Assembly (NCBI RefSeq): GCF_011039205.1
Contig: NZ_JAAKEL010000009.1
Location: 1-64,000, forward strand
DNA from: Dysgonomonas sp. ZJ279
GTDB lineage: Bacteria > Bacteroidota > Bacteroidia > Bacteroidales > Dysgonomonadaceae
Length of the DNA: 64,000 bases
Direction: 5' to 3'
In this document: positions 849 through 50,734 of the stretch, piece by piece
Numbering within the stretch: position 1 is the stretch's first letter
Layout of the letters: each line of letters opens with the position of its first letter
Program-made: the position numbers and the translations under genes
Notes under the pieces: model-generated
Database searches by the model: none
Told to the model about the DNA's origin: nothing
Seen by the model: only the letters and a program-made list of their open reading frames with translations

Positions 849-1778
849 TTATTTTTGTTTCATATATTTGGAAATAGTTTCGAGAAAAAGTTCTTGTTGA
901 TCAACATACAGAAAATGAGAGCAATTATCGATCAATGTAAAGTTTTTTTTACCCACAATTGCTTTCATATCTTCTAATTGCTTTTTCGAAAAAATTCTGT
1001 CTTGTTTTCCATAAATAGCAAATATGTGAATGTTTTGGGTTTTCAGTTTTTCGAGAATGGGTTTTGTATCAACGTTATTTAGTGTCTCATTCTGAAAAAA
1101 TATCGCAGGAGCATTCCGATTTCTGATGTTGTTTTTATAAAAGTCACTCTTTTGATATTCTTCTCGTAATTTCATAGATTCTTTTGTTGGTTTCGGCATA
1201 TCAAAAAAGCCATCAGCGAGATCGAAACATGCTGCACGGTATTCGGCAGTATTTTTGGGTAGCTGTCTGGTTTCTTCAATTTTATTCAACGTCTGCGTAT
1301 CACCGTTTTTGCGATAAACTTTCTCTACGGTATACAATATGTGGTCGTAAGTTTCTTGTTGTGAGAATAAAGCTCCTATAAGGATGATCGAATTTACTTT
1401 CTCCGGGTGCTGTTCTGCGAAGAATGTAGCAACTATTCCTCCAAAGCTATGTGCTAGAATATTTGCCTGTTCTATATTGTATTTCTCATAAATAGCAACA
1501 AGGTCATTGGATGATTCTTGGAATGTAAATGTTGCGTCAGGATCGGCAGAACGCCCTTCACCTCTTCGGTCATAAGCTATAACATAAAACCCTAATTCGG
1601 CAAGTCGCTGAGCTGTGGTCGCTTCAAATAATGTCGTATTTGAACTTGGGCCTCCATGTACATATATAATGGCAGGGCTTAAACTGCTGCCATAACTTTG
1701 CGAATAAATAGTTTGCCCTTTTGCTGAATTGATTGAAAGAATAGTAAGCAAGGCTAAATAAGGAAGTGTGGATTTCAT
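849..1778 (-). CDS. secreted alpha/beta hydrolase
   Basis: A 309-residue alpha/beta-hydrolase with a Sec signal peptide (residues 1-21, cleavage near AKG-QT). The catalytic set is visible: oxyanion-hole HGGP at 41-44, nucleophile Ser111 in AHSFGG, acid Asp260 in GKQDRIF and base His288 in NCSHFL. The HGGP and DRRGEGRS patterns recall proline iminopeptidases and related hydrolases, but the elbow is SFGG rather than the GGSWG typical of true iminopeptidases. The substrate is therefore open. Probably periplasmic. It sits alone between unrelated minus-strand genes. Confidence 0.85.
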   Translation of the reverse strand: MKSTLPYLALLTILSINSAKGQTIYSQSYGSSLSPAIIYVHGGPSSNTTLFEATTAQRLAELGFYVIAYDRRGEGRSADPDATFTFQESSNDLVAIYEKYNIEQANILAHSFGGIVATFFAEQHPEKVNSIILIGALFSQQETYDHILYTVEKVYRKNGDTQTLNKIEETRQLPKNTAEYRAACFDLADGFFDMPKPTKESMKLREEYQKSDFYKNNIRNRNAPAIFFQNETLNNVDTKPILEKLKTQNIHIFAIYGKQDRIFSKKQLEDMKAIVGKKNFTLIDNCSHFLYVDQQELFLETISKYMKQK

Positions 1779-1914
1779 CTTATGAACTTTTTTAATTTGG
1801 GCAAAGTTGTTTTAGTAATCCGAAAATCTCATTAAAATCATTGTCATTTGCTTTACGAATACTTAGTTCTATCATATTATAATTATTTTGGGTAGTTTTA
1901 GATGCAAATGTTAT

Positions 1915-2460
1915 CTATACCTCCAGACTAGAAATAATGTCTTGGGTAGAGCATACAGATATGTTATGTTTCGTAGGAGTCATGTTGCTCCACAGCCAAT
2001 TGTAATACTCTATTATTGTCGGAGCATCTACCTGTGGGCGCGATGCCGTAGTGTGTGCGTTGGAAGCAATATATATCTTAAAGTCGTTGACCAGAGCAGT
2101 TTTAATTGTCGCATCGACACAAAAGTCGGTAGCACATCCGCAGAAATATAATTCGTCGATGTTTTTCCCGATAAGAGTAGACAGTAATTCAGTATTGTAA
2201 AAGGCATCATTGGCTTCCTTTACTACAACTATATCCGAAGGCTCTTGTATTAATTCGGGTAATATTTCGAAGTCTTCAGTTTGTGGAAGAAGATATTCTT
2301 CTTTTGTCCCATCGTGTTTGATATATATTACTGGGTATCCTGCATCGCGAAACTTTCTGGAGAGTAAATTAATCTGTTCGATTTTTTGTAGTGTATTGTA
2401 GCGTATAGAGTAAGGTTTGAAACTTCCTATTTGCATGTCGATAATCAAAAGTGCTTTCAT
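1915..2460 (-). CDS. isochorismatase-family cysteine hydrolase
   Basis: A 181-residue protein of the isochorismatase/nicotinamidase fold. The catalytic triad can be placed: Asp8 in LIIDMQ, Lys81 in VVVKEANDAF and Cys114 in CATDFCVDAT. Members hydrolyse amides such as nicotinamide, N-carbamoyl amino acids or ureidoacrylate; small stand-alone members like this often have no known substrate. No signal peptide, so cytoplasmic. The TDFCVDAT context matches the general family rather than PncA specifically, which normally has a metal-site D-x-H-x-H motif that I do not see. Confidence 0.85.
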   Translation of the reverse strand: MKALLIIDMQIGSFKPYSIRYNTLQKIEQINLLSRKFRDAGYPVIYIKHDGTKEEYLLPQTEDFEILPELIQEPSDIVVVKEANDAFYNTELLSTLIGKNIDELYFCGCATDFCVDATIKTALVNDFKIYIASNAHTTASRPQVDAPTIIEYYNWLWSNMTPTKHNISVCSTQDIISSLEV

Positions 2461-2539
2461 AATTCAATGTTGTGATTTTATTTCCGTCAATAAAATTACC
2501 GTTTTTTCTATTAATGAATCTATCCGATGGGTATATTCT

Positions 2540-3154
2540 TTATCTTAATTCTCGGAAATGCTCAATCAGAAAAGTATAATATTCAGGACATAATGCACAT
2601 AGGTTCGCACGGTTAAACATTTTTGTAGAAAGCTGGTAGCTGTTATCCACTGCTGTAAATCCGTTTATCTGAACTTTATAGTGTTCATCTGCCATTACTT
2701 TTTCTAATTCTGATACAGGAACTTCGTAGATACCCAGAACTTCTTCTTTCTGAAGCGTAAAATCTTGCGGAGAGAATTTACCCTCTAAAGTGAAAATATT
2801 AGTGAACTCATTGTCGATCATGTTGGGAAGCGTTATGCTGATTGGCAGATAACCCAAATATTTAAGGTCAGAAAAATCTATCCGAATACCAAGTTCCTCT
2901 TCAATTTCACGAATACCATCACAAAGGCTTTCTGTCGAGAGTAGGTGACCGGCAGCAGTAATATCGAATAACCCGGCATAGTCTTTCTTAGTATCAGAAC
3001 GTTGTTGAAAATAAAGATAAGTATCAGAACTATCCCGATAATAAAACCAACAATGAAAGGTTTCGTGCCAAAGGCCAATCCGATGCGTTTCATCTCTTGT
3101 CGCAACGCCTATCTTAGTGTAAGCTTCGTCGAATACACTAAATATTTCTTCCAT
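2540..3154 (-). CDS. NUDIX hydrolase, IPP-isomerase-like type
   Basis: A 204-residue NUDIX protein. The Nudix box runs from Gly69 to Ile90, ending in REIEEELGI, which provides the metal-binding glutamates. By my count the box has six residues between the first Glu (E75) and the RE pair instead of the usual seven. The upstream HRIGLWHETFHCWFYYR region resembles the group related to isopentenyl-diphosphate isomerase and thiamine-pyrophosphate NUDIX enzymes. The substrate is unknown. It lies 15 bp downstream of the GNAT gene at 3170-3976 and probably shares its transcript. Confidence 0.85.
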   Translation of the reverse strand: MEEIFSVFDEAYTKIGVATRDETHRIGLWHETFHCWFYYRDSSDTYLYFQQRSDTKKDYAGLFDITAAGHLLSTESLCDGIREIEEELGIRIDFSDLKYLGYLPISITLPNMIDNEFTNIFTLEGKFSPQDFTLQKEEVLGIYEVPVSELEKVMADEHYKVQINGFTAVDNSYQLSTKMFNRANLCALCPEYYTFLIEHFRELR

Positions 3155-3169
3155 TCTTTTTAATATGAT

Positions 3170-3976
3170 TTATTTTACACCCAATTTATAATAGGCTGTT
3201 TCTATTGATTTTTCAAAACCGAGAGTTTCGGCTAACTTATACGAACCTGTATTATCCGATCTGCAAGCCCAGAGAGGCTCGAGTTTATTTTCTATACAAT
3301 AGTCGATAAGTGCAGAGCATGTTTTATATGCCAGACCTTTACCCTTAAACTCTTCAGATGTTTCAATGCCCAGTTCCAATTTATTGTCATGGATAAAAGC
3401 TGAAAATGCCGTTGAGGCTAACTTGCCGTTATAAAATAAACTAAATCCGACACCATTGTTTACAAAGTCGACTGAACCATTCCAGAATTTAAGAGGAATA
3501 ACAGCTCCTTTTATTCTTTCGCAAGTTTCTTTATCTGTTCGTCTAATTTGAACAAGAGGATCTGCTTTTTTTTGCATGTTCTTAGTCTCAAGATATTTGT
3601 CTTTGTTGAGTTTGAAATTAGTTCGTGTGTTACACTCTACAATATCGTTTGGTATGTCGTCAAACATATCCTTTAATACCTGTTCCCAATCGGAGGGAAA
3701 TACCTGCATCCATTCATCGCCTTTTCTATTCAGATTGGTATTTAGTACATATTCTTTAAATTGAGAATTAAACGTTTCATTATCGAAATCGCCAAAGAGC
3801 AGCGACATACCATAAGGATGAATAACATAAAATGTTTTGGGGTCTTCTTCGTTATCTACAAATATTTCGCCTTCCACTTTCTGTTCAATAACCGAACGGG
3901 CGAACAGGTTGTTAATCGTTACCAGCTTTAGGGGCTCGGTTACTTTATTGTAATATTGGTTGTCTAAACGTTTCAT
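3170..3976 (-). CDS. GNAT-family N-acetyltransferase (GNAT_acetyltran type)
   Basis: 268 residues. The C-terminal half carries the GNAT core: beta strand LELGIETSEEF, acetyl-CoA loop KGKGLA (211-216) and the downstream DNTGSYKLAETLGFEK helix, a common GNAT ending. The N-terminal 130 residues are a second domain of the kind seen in the larger GNAT_acetyltran group of Firmicutes and Bacteroidota. The acceptor is unknown. It is the first of a probable two-gene unit with the NUDIX gene. It starts at an ATG; the CDS is separated from the PUL end by two hairpins. Confidence 0.8.
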   Translation of the reverse strand: MKRLDNQYYNKVTEPLKLVTINNLFARSVIEQKVEGEIFVDNEEDPKTFYVIHPYGMSLLFGDFDNETFNSQFKEYVLNTNLNRKGDEWMQVFPSDWEQVLKDMFDDIPNDIVECNTRTNFKLNKDKYLETKNMQKKADPLVQIRRTDKETCERIKGAVIPLKFWNGSVDFVNNGVGFSLFYNGKLASTAFSAFIHDNKLELGIETSEEFKGKGLAYKTCSALIDYCIENKLEPLWACRSDNTGSYKLAETLGFEKSIETAYYKLGVK

Positions 3977-4081
3977 CTTAACTCATTATATTTTTCGAGG
4001 TTTAAAGATAATAATTTAAGGGTTGTGCTTGCTTTATCAGCTTATGAATTATTTATAATCTTACCAACGCTTGTACATCAA

Positions 4082-4114
4082 ATAAGGAGCTTTCTGAAAT
4101 AGAAAACTCCTTAT
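4082..4114 (-). terminator. putative hairpin terminator downstream of GH5
   Basis: The arms ATAAGGAG (4082-4089) and CTCCTTAT (4107-4114) are perfect complements, and the pairing can extend inward through TTTCT/AGAAA, giving about 13 of 14 paired bases around a GAAAT loop. It lies 42 bp past the stop codon of the last PUL gene. The run of T after it on the minus strand is short (TTATTTG), so termination there is plausible rather than certain. A second 9-bp stem (4122-4130 with 4144-4152) lies between it and the stop. Confidence 0.5.
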
Positions 4115-4155
4115 CCTTTTTAATAATTTGTGTACCTAGAAGACAAATTATTATT

Positions 4156-5403
4156 TCATGGTTTCATCCCGAGGGCGGTAATGTAACCTTCGTTTTTTGT
4201 GCAATTACTGAATTTCATATTTTCAAGTAAATCAGTCATCGCTTTCTTCACTTTTTCCTGATCTGGTCTGGCTTTTCTTATTTTAGCAAAATTGCTTCTG
4301 TCTTGTTTAGTGTATTCAACAATCAAATCCCAATTTTCGGGAGTCGGAATTGTCAGCATGCAGCTTTTTGGTACCATCTTTTTGTATGGCCAATAGTGCC
4401 ATCCAATGTTGTTACGTTCCATCAGGCGAGTCCATCCTGCAATCCATTCGTCCGAATTCTCACCTGTTTCGCCCATATACATTGGGAGGTTCACGCTATC
4501 TCTGAAATTTACAAAGTCCTGAATGTTGGCTTGTAATGTATCGCACCAGTAGCGGTGACATGTGTACATCATTTTATCGTCGAATTTAGAATCATTAAAG
4601 ACAGTGAAATTACCATTCCACTGAGCACCGCCCAGCAATACGATATGATTGTTGTCTACAGTTCTTATCGAATCTACACATCTTTTGTACAAAGGCTCTA
4701 GCGAGTCGTTCAAGTGTGCGTAATCTTCCATAAAATAGTGCGCAATAGGCTCATTCAGCAAGTCATAACCTAGTATTATTGTATCGTTCTTGTAATGATC
4801 TGCCACTTTCTTCCATATATCGCAGAACAGCTCTTTGCTTGGCTCGCTTTCCATCAACCAAGGATAGCCGTAGCTATCGTCTATGTTGTCTCCTGTTTGT
4901 CCTCCGGGAGCATCGTGCATATCCAGAATAACGTATAGGTTTTGCTTACGGCACCATTCTATGGCATTATCTATCAGTTCAAAGCCATTTTGGTTAGAAT
5001 CCAAACCCATGTAATCTTCATTGGTAAAGAGCTTATAATGAAACGGAATTCTGACCGAATTCATCCCCGTTTGTTTTATATACTTTATATCATCTTCGGT
5101 GATATAATTTTTCTTAAACTCGTTCCAGAACCAATTTGTGAAATCGGGGCCGACCATTTCGCAGAATGCTTCGTTGATCACACGGTACGAACTCACATCG
5201 CCAAAGAAGAACATATAACCTTCGGGATTGAGCCAGTTACCCAGATTAATGCCTTGTATGAAGAATTTCTCTCCATTCGGTTTTATCAGGTCGGGGCCAT
5301 TTACACGGATAAAGCGTTCGGCGTGTTGTGGCTCAGTTTGTTCTTTCGACCCACAACTTAAGAGCAAGAGAGGAAATAGGAGTAAATAGATTAGTTTCTT
5401 CAT
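4156..5403 (-). CDS. GH5-family glucanase lipoprotein (exo-beta-1,3-glucanase/BglC-like)
   Basis: A 415-residue lipoprotein: lipobox LLSC with Cys17, so probably anchored in the outer membrane. The (beta/alpha)8 clan-A signature is clear: INLGNWLNPEG (52-62), MNSVRIPFHY, ILDMHDAPGG, acid/base Glu218 in DLLNEPIA and nucleophile Glu312 in MGETGEN. It resembles the BglC/exo-1,3-beta-glucanase side of GH5 more than endocellulases. It is the last gene of the susC operon, 107 bp after the GH3 gene, and probably trims oligosaccharides made by the GH16 enzyme. Linkage specificity cannot be fixed from sequence alone. Confidence 0.85.
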   Translation of the reverse strand: MKKLIYLLLFPLLLLSCGSKEQTEPQHAERFIRVNGPDLIKPNGEKFFIQGINLGNWLNPEGYMFFFGDVSSYRVINEAFCEMVGPDFTNWFWNEFKKNYITEDDIKYIKQTGMNSVRIPFHYKLFTNEDYMGLDSNQNGFELIDNAIEWCRKQNLYVILDMHDAPGGQTGDNIDDSYGYPWLMESEPSKELFCDIWKKVADHYKNDTIILGYDLLNEPIAHYFMEDYAHLNDSLEPLYKRCVDSIRTVDNNHIVLLGGAQWNGNFTVFNDSKFDDKMMYTCHRYWCDTLQANIQDFVNFRDSVNLPMYMGETGENSDEWIAGWTRLMERNNIGWHYWPYKKMVPKSCMLTIPTPENWDLIVEYTKQDRSNFAKIRKARPDQEKVKKAMTDLLENMKFSNCTKNEGYITALGMKP

Positions 5404-5510
5404 AATTTTAGCGTGTTTTCATTATAATTATCTTCAAGCGTGTTTTATAGGCTAAAGGTATAAAAATTACATTCACGGTAACTCTTATACCTTCGCTATA
5501 TGCTTATTTA

Positions 5511-47464: not shown

Positions 47465-47917
47465 ATGAGTGAGTTAGTTGTTAAATATGGTATATCGGGA
47501 GGTAAAAAGATAACTAATATTGTTATCGGTATTTATCTGATAATTTTCAGCCTTTACTTCTGTATTACCGAAGGCGTGGCAAGTCGTTTTGATATTCTTT
47601 TCTGTAGTTCTCTGATCGGAGTCGTAATGGCTGCTATATTATTGCTTAGTAATACCCTTTGGTTACCGGGAGATACATTGAGAATCGATAGTAATTCTAT
47701 TGAAGCCAGTTTACCCGGACAAAGTAATGTAAAGATAGAATGGACAACAGTCAGCCAAGTAAACATTGGAGTGAGCTACATTGTCCTTTTGCTTAACGGT
47801 GGACAAAAACAACGCAAGTTAGACCTATCCAATCTTATTTATAGTGATGTTACGGCGGTGAAAAGCAAAATTGTAGAGTTAAGCGAGTTTAAGAATATAC
47901 CTTATCAGAATGACTGA
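47465..47917 (+). CDS. small membrane protein with PH-like C-terminal part
   Basis: 150 residues. Two transmembrane helices (about 16-34 and 45-63) are followed by a soluble beta-rich part (TLRIDSNSIEASLPGQSNVKIEWTTVSQVNIGVSYIVLLL), which has the look of a bacterial PH-like domain facing the cytoplasm. No named family recognised. It begins 59 bp after tcdA and precedes the pentose-donor-like cassette by about 20 bp, so it may be co-transcribed with it. Confidence 0.75.
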   Translation: MSELVVKYGISGGKKITNIVIGIYLIIFSLYFCITEGVASRFDILFCSSLIGVVMAAILLLSNTLWLPGDTLRIDSNSIEASLPGQSNVKIEWTTVSQVNIGVSYIVLLLNGGQKQRKLDLSNLIYSDVTAVKSKIVELSEFKNIPYQND

Positions 47918-47938
47918 TAAATATTGTATTTTTACATA

Positions 47939-49225
47939 ATGGACTCTAAAACAAAGGTTTTAAAAGATAATTTTGTACAGCTAAAAAACGTTGTTATAAC
48001 AATACTGCCTAAGGGTAAGATAGAAATATCGCTTTTTCTGTTTTTTACTTTTATTTATTTATCGTATTCATTGTTCTTACTTTTCCATACCTATATTCTA
48101 GACTATCCTTATGCAGGAATTTATGATTTATATCTTTCTTTTGACAATACACCTATATTTAATCAAGGTTTTCTGAATTTGGAAAGGCATCCCTTGATGC
48201 TCTATTTCACCAAGCCTTTAATGTTGGTAGGAGATGTATTAATTAAATTATTCGGCTATAAAGCGAAAGGAGTATTTATAGTTTTATTTTGCACTTCAAT
48301 AGTCTCTTTATCTATAGTTTATATATATCGGTATCTTAAGATTATAGTAGGAGTAAATAAGTACCCTCTTTACCTTTTAGTTTTCTTCTATGGGTTCTTT
48401 TCAACAAATCTTATTCTCTGTTTCACCATCGAATCTTTTACAATTTCATTGTTCCTCCTGACTTTTACTGTATATTATTATAGCTACTGTATATTATCGG
48501 AGAAGAAAGTGACATTTCTTTCCAATATATTTTTTGCATTTGCATTAGGAGGTACAACAATAACAAACTTTGCAAAAGGAATTATTCCGATATTCTTTAT
48601 TAAAGGGAATATAAAAAATAAGCTTTATAAAATATTCGCTTTAGGAATATTGTTTTTCTTAAGCCTTGTATGGATAGAATTTAGATATAACATTTTTTCA
48701 AATCTTACTTCTGGGATTAATAAGTTTATCTATTCCGAGAGTAGTTTGCTTGAGAAGGTAGTTGATCTATTTTTAGGATCTCCGATATTTTTTCCTCCGA
48801 TACAAAAAGGACTGAATGAGTATTCAGGGGTGATGATAGAAACCGATCGTTATCATTTTTGGTGGCAATATCTATTTGTTGGGCTATTATTCTTTTTTAT
48901 CATATACTCTATAATTAGAGGTTATAAAAATAAGTATATTCAACTTTTAGTACTATTCTTTAGCTGTGATATTTTTTTACATGTAATTTTGAAATTTGGT
49001 ATTGCTGAGGGATTTTTATATGGAGGTCATTGGGTTTATGTAGTACCTCTTTTTCTAGGTTGGTTATATAAATCATTAAGTAAAAAAACGGGTAATATAT
49101 TTCTATTATTATTATCTTGCATGTTTCTTTTTCTGTGTGTAAATAATATTTACCAATTAATTAATTTTCTCACCCTTGCGATAGAATATTATCCTTTAGT
49201 ATTGCCGGACTGGATTTCAATTTAA
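47939..49225 (+). CDS. polytopic membrane protein, possibly a GT-C type glycosyltransferase
   Basis: 428 residues from the ATG at 47939 (a TTG lies 5 codons upstream). About ten hydrophobic helices. The first loop after the first helix is polar and acidic (YPYAGIYDLYLSFDNTP), and the following NLERHPLMLYFTKPL and the late FFPPIQKGLNEYSG loop are the main soluble parts. The layout of many helices with an early acidic loop recalls GT-C enzymes that use polyprenyl-phosphate sugars, but I see no secure signature. It lies 7 bp before the UbiA-type gene, which fits the donor idea. Confidence 0.6.
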   Translation: MDSKTKVLKDNFVQLKNVVITILPKGKIEISLFLFFTFIYLSYSLFLLFHTYILDYPYAGIYDLYLSFDNTPIFNQGFLNLERHPLMLYFTKPLMLVGDVLIKLFGYKAKGVFIVLFCTSIVSLSIVYIYRYLKIIVGVNKYPLYLLVFFYGFFSTNLILCFTIESFTISLFLLTFTVYYYSYCILSEKKVTFLSNIFFAFALGGTTITNFAKGIIPIFFIKGNIKNKLYKIFALGILFFLSLVWIEFRYNIFSNLTSGINKFIYSESSLLEKVVDLFLGSPIFFPPIQKGLNEYSGVMIETDRYHFWWQYLFVGLLFFFIIYSIIRGYKNKYIQLLVLFFSCDIFLHVILKFGIAEGFLYGGHWVYVVPLFLGWLYKSLSKKTGNIFLLLLSCMFLFLCVNNIYQLINFLTLAIEYYPLVLPDWISI

Positions 49226-49232
49226 TTATATA

Positions 49233-50117
49233 ATGAGAAGAATAAAATCATACATACAGCTGATACGGGTGCATCAATGGGTTAAAAATCTATTCGTATT
49301 TATTCCAATGTTTTTTGCATTTAGGATGACTGAGATTCCTTTAATTATAGCTTGTATTTGGGCTTTTATTGGTTTGTCATTCGTTGCCAGTTCTATATAC
49401 ATCGTTAATGACTTGTGCGATATTGAAGCTGACAAGTTACATCCTATGAAAAGAAACAGACCTTTAGCTTCGGGAACTGTAAATAAGAGAGATGCCTTTA
49501 TTCTATTTACTTTTTTGCTTGCATCAGGATTCTCAATGTATATATTCTTATTAAAAGATATTTATGCTGTTGCACTATTGGGACTCTACTTTGTGTTAAA
49601 TGTCCTTTATTCATTTAAGTTGAAGCATATTGCTATTGTTGATGTTTCTATTGTCGCTGCGGGTTTCGTTATACGTCTTTTTCTCGGTGGGTTGGTAACA
49701 GATGTACCTCTTTCCAGATGGGTTGTAATTATGACGTTTTTGTTAGCATTACTTTTAGCTCTGGGGAAACGGAGAGATGATGTTCTTATTTTTATTGAAA
49801 CGGGTAATAAGGCTCGAAAAAATCTGGATGGTTATAATCTCGATTTCTTGAATACTGTTATTACTATAATGTCTAGTATTATAATTGTTTCTTATATCAT
49901 GTACACGGTTTCACCCGAAGTGATTGCTCGTAATGGGGAAAATTTATATCTATCCTCTATTTTTGTTATACTTGGTATTCTACGCTATTTACAAATTGTT
50001 TTTGTAAAAGGGGATGGAGGAAATCCAACTAAAATATTTATTAAAGATCGCTTTATGCATATAATATTTATTGGTTGGATAGGTACTTTTTTGATATTTT
50101 CACTTCTTTACAAATAA
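49233..50117 (+). CDS. UbiA-family prenyltransferase, decaprenyl-phosphate phosphoribosyltransferase-like
   Basis: 294 residues with eight to nine transmembrane helices. The Asp-rich motif is NDLCDIEADKLHPMKRNRPL (59-78), and the start LIRVHQWVKNLFVFIPMFFA is the form typical of DPPR synthases (Rv3806c-like) rather than of quinone prenyltransferases. A second loop GKRRDDVLIF lies near 185. DPPR synthase joins polyprenyl phosphate with PRPP to give polyprenyl-phosphoryl-5-phosphoribose. The HAD gene downstream could remove the 5-phosphate. Confidence 0.85.
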   Translation: MRRIKSYIQLIRVHQWVKNLFVFIPMFFAFRMTEIPLIIACIWAFIGLSFVASSIYIVNDLCDIEADKLHPMKRNRPLASGTVNKRDAFILFTFLLASGFSMYIFLLKDIYAVALLGLYFVLNVLYSFKLKHIAIVDVSIVAAGFVIRLFLGGLVTDVPLSRWVVIMTFLLALLLALGKRRDDVLIFIETGNKARKNLDGYNLDFLNTVITIMSSIIIVSYIMYTVSPEVIARNGENLYLSSIFVILGILRYLQIVFVKGDGGNPTKIFIKDRFMHIIFIGWIGTFLIFSLLYK

Positions 50118-50128
50118 AACGTTATGGC

Positions 50129-50734
50129 ATGAAAATTGTTGAAGAATCAAGAATTATTGCAGTCTTCGATTTTGATGGGACGATTACAGTGAAGGATACT
50201 CTTTTTGACTTTATCGTTTTTTGTCATGGGGGATGGAAGTTAGTAGCTGGATTGCTTATTTTATCGCCAATATTAGTTCTTTTTAAGCTTGGTTTTATTA
50301 CAAATGAATCAGCAAAACAACGTATGTTTTCCTTTTTCTTCAAAGGAAAAAAGAAACCTGATTTCGATCTTTATTGTCAGAGATATAGTAGGAGAATTGA
50401 TGAAATAACGAATTTAGAAGCTGCTGATAAGATTAAGTGGCACCAATCAGAAGGGCATCAGATAATAATAATAAGTGCTTCTATTGTCGATTGGATTAAA
50501 CCTTGGGCAAATACTTCAAATATAGAAGAGGTAATTGGTACGCAGATAGAAATAAAAGATAATATAATAACGGGTAGATTTGCAAGTAAGAACTGTTATG
50601 GGCGGGAGAAAGTAAATCGTTTACTCGCATTGTATCCTGATAGAGATTCCTATAAATTATATGCATATGGAGATAGTAGCGGCGATAAAGAATTGCTCTC
50701 CATCGCCGATTATCCATTCTATAGAAAGTTCTGA
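50129..50734 (+). CDS. HAD-IB family phosphatase
   Basis: 201 residues from the ATG at 50129; the longer frame overlaps the end of the UbiA-type gene. HAD motifs: Asp14/Asp16 (FDFDGT), Ser117 in IIISAS, Lys161 and GDSSGDKE with Asp182/Asp186. The hydrophobic cap segment (WKLVAGLLILSPILVLFKLGF) is usual for the subgroup often annotated as phosphoserine-phosphatase-like. Next to a DPPR-synthase-like gene it may dephosphorylate the lipid-linked 5-phosphoribose. It stops just before the convergent folD gene. Confidence 0.87.
   Translation: MKIVEESRIIAVFDFDGTITVKDTLFDFIVFCHGGWKLVAGLLILSPILVLFKLGFITNESAKQRMFSFFFKGKKKPDFDLYCQRYSRRIDEITNLEAADKIKWHQSEGHQIIIISASIVDWIKPWANTSNIEEVIGTQIEIKDNIITGRFASKNCYGREKVNRLLALYPDRDSYKLYAYGDSSGDKELLSIADYPFYRKF

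Follow-up and report, generated by a model that had tools for sequence, protein, structure and literature searches.

The question raised by this locus of Dysgonomonas sp. ZJ279 is what is made by three closely packed genes that encode a polytopic membrane protein, a UbiA-superfamily protein and a HAD phosphatase. The genes lie in the window, the whole 64,000-nucleotide stretch of DNA that was analysed, which lies at the start of a contig of 113 kb in a genome of 4.1 Mb. The initial annotation proposed a polyprenyl-phosphoryl-pentose cassette serving a surface glycan, a proposal that appears right in outline and is supported by sequence and structure prediction. At that level, the two findings named as able to overturn it, another acceptor for the UbiA protein and a first protein of non-GT-C fold, were both decided in its favour. 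The trio is probably an accessory glycan-decorating cassette, by which a lipid-linked ribose would be made and then attached to a surface glycan. It comprises the following genes:

47939..49225, + strand: DUF6080 polytopic membrane protein, predicted GT-C enzyme and candidate pentofuranosyltransferase (PF19558, fold model, conserved residues)
49233..50117, + strand: UbiA-superfamily protein, putative polyprenyl-phosphate phosphoribosyltransferase, PPPRS/DPPRS-like (NF008978, PDB 8j8j, PRPP-site residues)
50129..50734, + strand: HAD-IB phosphatase, predicted 5-phosphoribosyl-lipid phosphatase (PF12710, TIGR01490, motifs, locus context)

The three open reading frames were confirmed to lie in a row on one strand with gaps below 12 bp. 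The DUF6080 gene runs from an ATG at 47939 to a stop at 49225, with an in-frame TTG upstream at 47924; the UbiA gene begins 7 bp past this stop, and the HAD gene (ATG 50129, stop 50734) begins 11 bp past the stop of the UbiA gene. A search for terminator-like sites within the three-gene run found none. G+C content is lower in the cassette (0.28, 0.32, and 0.34 for the DUF6080, UbiA, and HAD genes, respectively) than in the window (0.37), and the genes on either side are of the housekeeping kind. Upstream lie a ThiF/TcdA-like gene and one for a 150-residue protein, and folD and a signal-recognition-particle GTPase gene, the latter named by reading, lie downstream on the opposite strand. The 150-residue protein (47465-47917), which is encoded 21 bp ahead of the cassette, has two likely membrane segments and a weak similarity to the STM3941 family (E 0.013); its membership of the cassette was weighed and rejected, since it is missing from every other copy of the cassette.

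The UbiA protein appears to group with phosphoribosyltransferases and not with quinone or heme prenyltransferases. It matches PF01040 (Pfam, E 7.7e-20) and scores 215.4 bits against the curated NCBIfam equivalog NF008978, decaprenyl-phosphate phosphoribosyltransferase, above the cutoff of 207, and it stays under the cutoffs of the sister models NF008977 (216.6 vs 234) and NF008976 (176 vs 474). Its best PDB relative is Rv3806c of M. tuberculosis (8j8j, E 2.1e-39), with archaeal and ubiquinone enzymes much weaker (E 3e-6 and worse). The PRPP-site residues of Rv3806c have been named from a solved structure (PMC10994848), and R22, K28, Y70, N73, D77, K87, R90, Y138, K143, and K208 are all retained in the alignment; the conserved residues in the protein's own numbering are R12, K18, Y56, N59, D63, D67, K73, R76, Y126, and K131. 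An NDxxDxxxD motif and a putative PRPP-binding basic cluster are present. Two positions are substituted, Q135 of Rv3806c by N123 and Y157 by F145, and phenylalanine at the latter position is also found in some mycobacteria (PMC10994848). Together with the locus context, these features of the sequence argue strongly for a phosphoribosyltransferase, in keeping with the earlier description of the protein as DPPR-synthase-like. In the UbiA tree, the outgroups MenA and CtaB stood on extreme branches misplaced inside the ingroup and the deep branching was poorly resolved, and the tree was therefore read solely for how the DUF6080-linked copies group locally.

The HAD protein matches PF12710 (E 1.6e-34), scores above the cutoff of TIGR01490, and has an intact DFDGT nucleophile motif (HAD loop I, DxDGT). 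This motif and a later GD..GD motif are invariant in 14 of 14 HAD homologues, all of them at UbiA loci, and a HAD relative is present at 56 of 80 loci with UbiA that were retrieved from named genomes. In the flavobacterial genus Chryseobacterium and its relatives, the gene order is UbiA-DprE1-DprE2-HAD. The best NCBIfam model for the first middle gene of this operon is decaprenylphosphoryl-ribose oxidase (E 2e-119, below the strict cutoff), while the second matches the reductase-partner model (E 3e-43, below the strict cutoff and after an unnamed SDR model). Because homologues of the UbiA and HAD proteins sit in such operons, the pair can be tied to a lipid-linked pentose, and motifs and context together strongly predict that the HAD protein is a 5-phosphoribosyl-lipid phosphatase. 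DprE1 relatives were seen at 38 UbiA loci in all (e.g., L101 6001-9521), typically in the order UbiA-DprE1-DprE2-HAD. These loci, common in Weeksellaceae and other Bacteroidota, suggest that lipid-linked arabinofuranose may be synthesized far from the actinobacteria. If so, arabinose-making DprE1 homologues would be widespread outside that group, which bears on DprE1-directed drugs.

The pathway had initially been modelled on mycobacteria. That precedent stands for the type of the first enzyme, but a closer one is a Gram-negative three-component system reported in 2024, and the mycobacterial phosphatase Rv3807c is described in that report as unrelated to HAD enzymes (PMC11127046). In Citrobacter youngae, biochemical work showed that polyprenyl-phosphoryl-ribofuranose is made from PRPP by an enzyme that joins a UbiA-type part to a HAD domain and that a GT-C enzyme (GT136) adds the ribofuranose to the O antigen, and an exporter was proposed; the parts of the O1/O2 systems are ORF15 (PPPRS with a PRP domain), ORF14 (flippase), and ORF12 (GT136) (PMC11127046). 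The window cassette is similar in that a UbiA-type phosphoribosyltransferase, a HAD-type phosphatase, and a GT-C protein are encoded together in a Gram-negative bacterium, but differs in having separate UbiA and HAD genes, and the flippase gene expected of a three-component pentofuranose system was not found within it. The DUF6080 protein, of 433 residues, also lacks the C-terminal carbohydrate-binding domain of ORF12 (503-652). The mycobacterial DPA pathway (Rv3806c, Rv3807c, DprE1/E2, Emb/Aft) begins with an enzyme of the same type and likewise has GT-C enzymes that draw on a lipid-linked pentofuranose, whereas the window genome is without DprE1, its phosphatase is of HAD type, and the DUF6080 GT-C protein is without large extra domains. 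Pilin arabinosylation in Pseudomonas aeruginosa likewise uses a PPPRS in a Gram-negative bacterium, but arabinose is the product expected there and no pilin genes were seen beside the window cassette. The cassette is best classed as a variant, in Bacteroidota, of the three-component pentofuranose pathway described for Citrobacter (PMC11127046), with a different and shorter GT-C enzyme.

The DprE1/DprE2 pair of the arabinose-making DPA pathway was not found. The initial annotation had reported neither gene in the window, and for DprE1 the absence covers the whole genome, in which a profile search detected no relative. The same search found no DprE1 in the genomes with Parabacteroides- and Prevotellaceae-type cassettes or in other Dysgonomonas genomes, one of which gave a marginal 77-residue match (E 6e-4), and it detected DprE1 in 8 of 8 Weeksellaceae DUF6080 genomes, which served as a control. 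Without DprE1 in the window genome, the sugar is expected to be ribofuranose, and the earlier preference for ribose over arabinose gains support at the level of gene content. The donor might instead be made as proposed and then converted into another pentofuranose, such as xylofuranose, by a non-DprE epimerase encoded elsewhere. In C. youngae O2, xylofuranose is made through one SDR epimerase in an otherwise identical system (PMC11127046), and a metagenomic record holds UbiA, HAD, SMR/EamA, epimerase, and DUF6044 genes in one run. However, no epimerase gene was found in or beside the window cassette or the other Dysgonomonas, Parabacteroides, and Prevotellaceae copies, and such a conversion is judged unlikely, with a small but real chance of being correct. 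Ribofuranose is thus retained as the preferred sugar.

The first protein of the run is a member of DUF6080 (PF19558, Pfam, E 2.1e-55), a family without a named function, on which a literature search found no paper. In an alignment of 17 sequences, E34, D74, H89-P90, G210, T212, N215, K218, Y310, D349, H353, H369, P375, and N408 (numbered from the TTG at 47924) are invariant or nearly so. D74 and H89-P90 fall in the predicted first periplasmic loop, and D74, a candidate for the conserved acidic residue of GT-C enzymes, is present in 16 of 16 full-length sequences. The AlphaFold model has a pLDDT of 75 and a pTM of 0.81, with weak confidence in the putative catalytic first loop around D74 (pLDDT <50 at 71-88). 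In comparisons with VIA-align, about 290 of the 433 residues aligned with GT-C enzymes at Z 13-18.5, including ALG12 and Pmt4 (18.5), ArnT (16.9), PglB (16.5), AftB (16.3), AftD (14.9), EmbB (14.8), and AftA (13.4). The best 45 matches were all GT-C enzymes or GPI transamidase subunit U, which shares the GT-C fold, and the 46th, the first unrelated structure, had a Z of 4.1. Foldseek alone also ranked GT-C enzymes first, but at E 0.03 or worse. As the DUF6080 profile detected no relative among PDB sequences, the fold is read from the model, which argues strongly for a GT-C fold and hence implies glycosyl transfer from a lipid donor, as the initial annotation had supposed for this polytopic protein. 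A GT-C fold is silent on the donor sugar, and pentofuranose is assigned as the substrate with moderate confidence. The new element here is DUF6080 as a candidate GT-C pentofuranosyltransferase.

Among 61 near genomes, DUF6080 was found in six and a full-length UbiA enzyme in eight, and the six have both genes, adjacent to each other. The three genes stay together in six genomes of the Dysgonomonas group, that of the window and five more of the same genus, at no fewer than three genomic sites: next to TcdA and folD in the window, next to a formyltransferase-like gene (L057), and in a region with ABC-transporter-like and mscL-like genes (L053, L054, and L055), the genes of the latter two sites being named by reading. 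In the same-genus genome G018, a decayed cassette (L060 9520-10554) occupies a site where the close relative G015 has an intact one; DUF6080 and UbiA are largely deleted, HAD is broken, and the flanks are 90-93% identical to those of G015, indicating that the cassette is accessory and can be lost. Outside the genus, the order is UbiA-HAD-DUF6080 in Parabacteroides acidifaciens, UbiA-HAD-DUF6080-DUF6080 in another genome of the order (L062; two acyltransferase genes adjoin it within a region of glycan genes), and UbiA-HAD-GtrA-DUF6080-DUF6080, with GtrA confirmed by Pfam, in Leyella stercorea and a Prevotella MAG, both Prevotellaceae. GtrA with DUF6080 in the last two corresponds to the pairing of flippase and transferase that known three-component systems show. 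Adjacency of DUF6080 and UbiA spans three families and two gene orders, and it exceeds chance, given that the trio recurs in the five further genomes of the genus and in two other families.

An even sample of the phylum (395 genomes, with the UbiA enzyme counted at E below 1e-30) contained DUF6080 in 12 genomes and the UbiA enzyme in 138, including all 12. The UbiA enzyme was present in 12/12 DUF6080 genomes vs 126/383 others (Fisher p 2e-6), counts that are phylogenetically non-independent and stand for fewer than 12 events, since eight of the 12 genomes belong to one family, Weeksellaceae; at the genus level, 7 of 7 DUF6080 genera have the enzyme (p 0.006). E. coli genomes yielded no match. 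One of the 12 genomes (G279) has a weak DUF6080 match, yet this gene adjoins the UbiA gene. Linkage does not hold everywhere, for in Weeksellaceae the two genes are distant from each other on the chromosome. Their co-occurrence in this family therefore does not stem from linkage, although each may simply belong to the family's core gene set.

This separation leaves some room for a reading in which the UbiA-HAD pair produces polyprenyl-phosphoryl-ribose and DUF6080 is a mere neighbour, a GT-C enzyme using another lipid-linked sugar. GT-C enzymes take many donors, and other large membrane proteins hold the same place at many UbiA loci. Nevertheless, the adjacency across families and gene orders, the co-occurrence in all 12 genomes, the position of GtrA between HAD and DUF6080 in Leyella and Prevotella, and the joint decay of the cassette in G018 all speak for a shared function, and an unrelated neighbour seems quite improbable. 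That the UbiA protein is an ordinary prenyltransferase, serving menaquinone, heme, or aromatic metabolite synthesis and wrongly named through similarity, is very hard to credit, for although the UbiA family is large and a flavobacterial member was shown to prenylate quinolines, the PRPP-site residues are kept, homologues sit in DprE1/DprE2 operons, the genome has a separate MenA-like UbiA-family gene whose product is without the equivalents of K28, Y70, N73, K87, and K143, and the quinoline enzymes belong to ebo clusters and group apart from phosphoribosyltransferases in that paper.

From the gene order, the protein families, the conserved PRPP site, the predicted GT-C fold, the recurrence, the co-occurrence, and the lack of a DprE1 relative, we infer the reactions, sugar, lipid, flippase, and acceptor of a ribose-transferring cassette as follows. 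At the cytoplasmic face, the UbiA protein would move 5-phosphoribose from PRPP onto a polyprenyl phosphate that is probably undecaprenyl phosphate, and the HAD enzyme would strip the 5-phosphate to yield polyprenyl-phosphoryl-ribofuranose. A flippase encoded elsewhere, likely of the GtrA or SMR/EamA type, would carry the lipid to the periplasmic face, where the DUF6080 GT-C protein would attach ribofuranose, probably as a side chain, to a glycan or glycoprotein of the cell surface.

The only GtrA gene of the window genome lies on the same contig about 57 kb downstream of the cassette, directly after a PMT_2-type GT-C gene (L052 1389-3674). With no flippase gene in the cassette itself, this position beside another GT-C gene counts against the proposed scheme. 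The metagenomic record mentioned above (MT837543.1), an unannotated 6.6-kb 'Bacteriophage sp.' entry from human faeces and of putative phage origin, carries in a row genes for UbiA, HAD, an SMR/EamA-type small transporter, an NAD-dependent epimerase, and a DUF6044 membrane protein (L197, reverse complement, 898-5419), and is a candidate for a full pentofuranose cassette with flippase and epimerase. An SMR-type flippase like that of this record had no convincing relative in the window genome, the match (E 0.003) being part of a 294-residue frame. DUF6080 was not found in phage records.

On balance, we lean slightly towards a broader view in which DUF6080 is a new Bacteroidota family of GT-C pentofuranosyltransferases, with Bacteroidales using lipid-linked ribofuranose and Weeksellaceae using arabinofuranose made by DprE1/DprE2, so that the epimerase and not the transferase would set the donor. 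DUF6080 thereby gains a testable function and a link to a recently described sugar-decorating pathway, and the lipid-linked pentofuranose pathway would reach beyond Citrobacter to Bacteroidota that are common in the gut and the environment. If this is true, many such bacteria would carry unrecognized ribofuranose or arabinofuranose on their surface glycans, with relevance to glycan recognition by phages and hosts. Where DUF6080 is absent, large membrane proteins without a Pfam match adjoin UbiA genes at several loci (L144 8192-9823, L131 4412-6004, L076 1745-3466, and L122 7771-9423), and these may represent further unnamed GT-C families.
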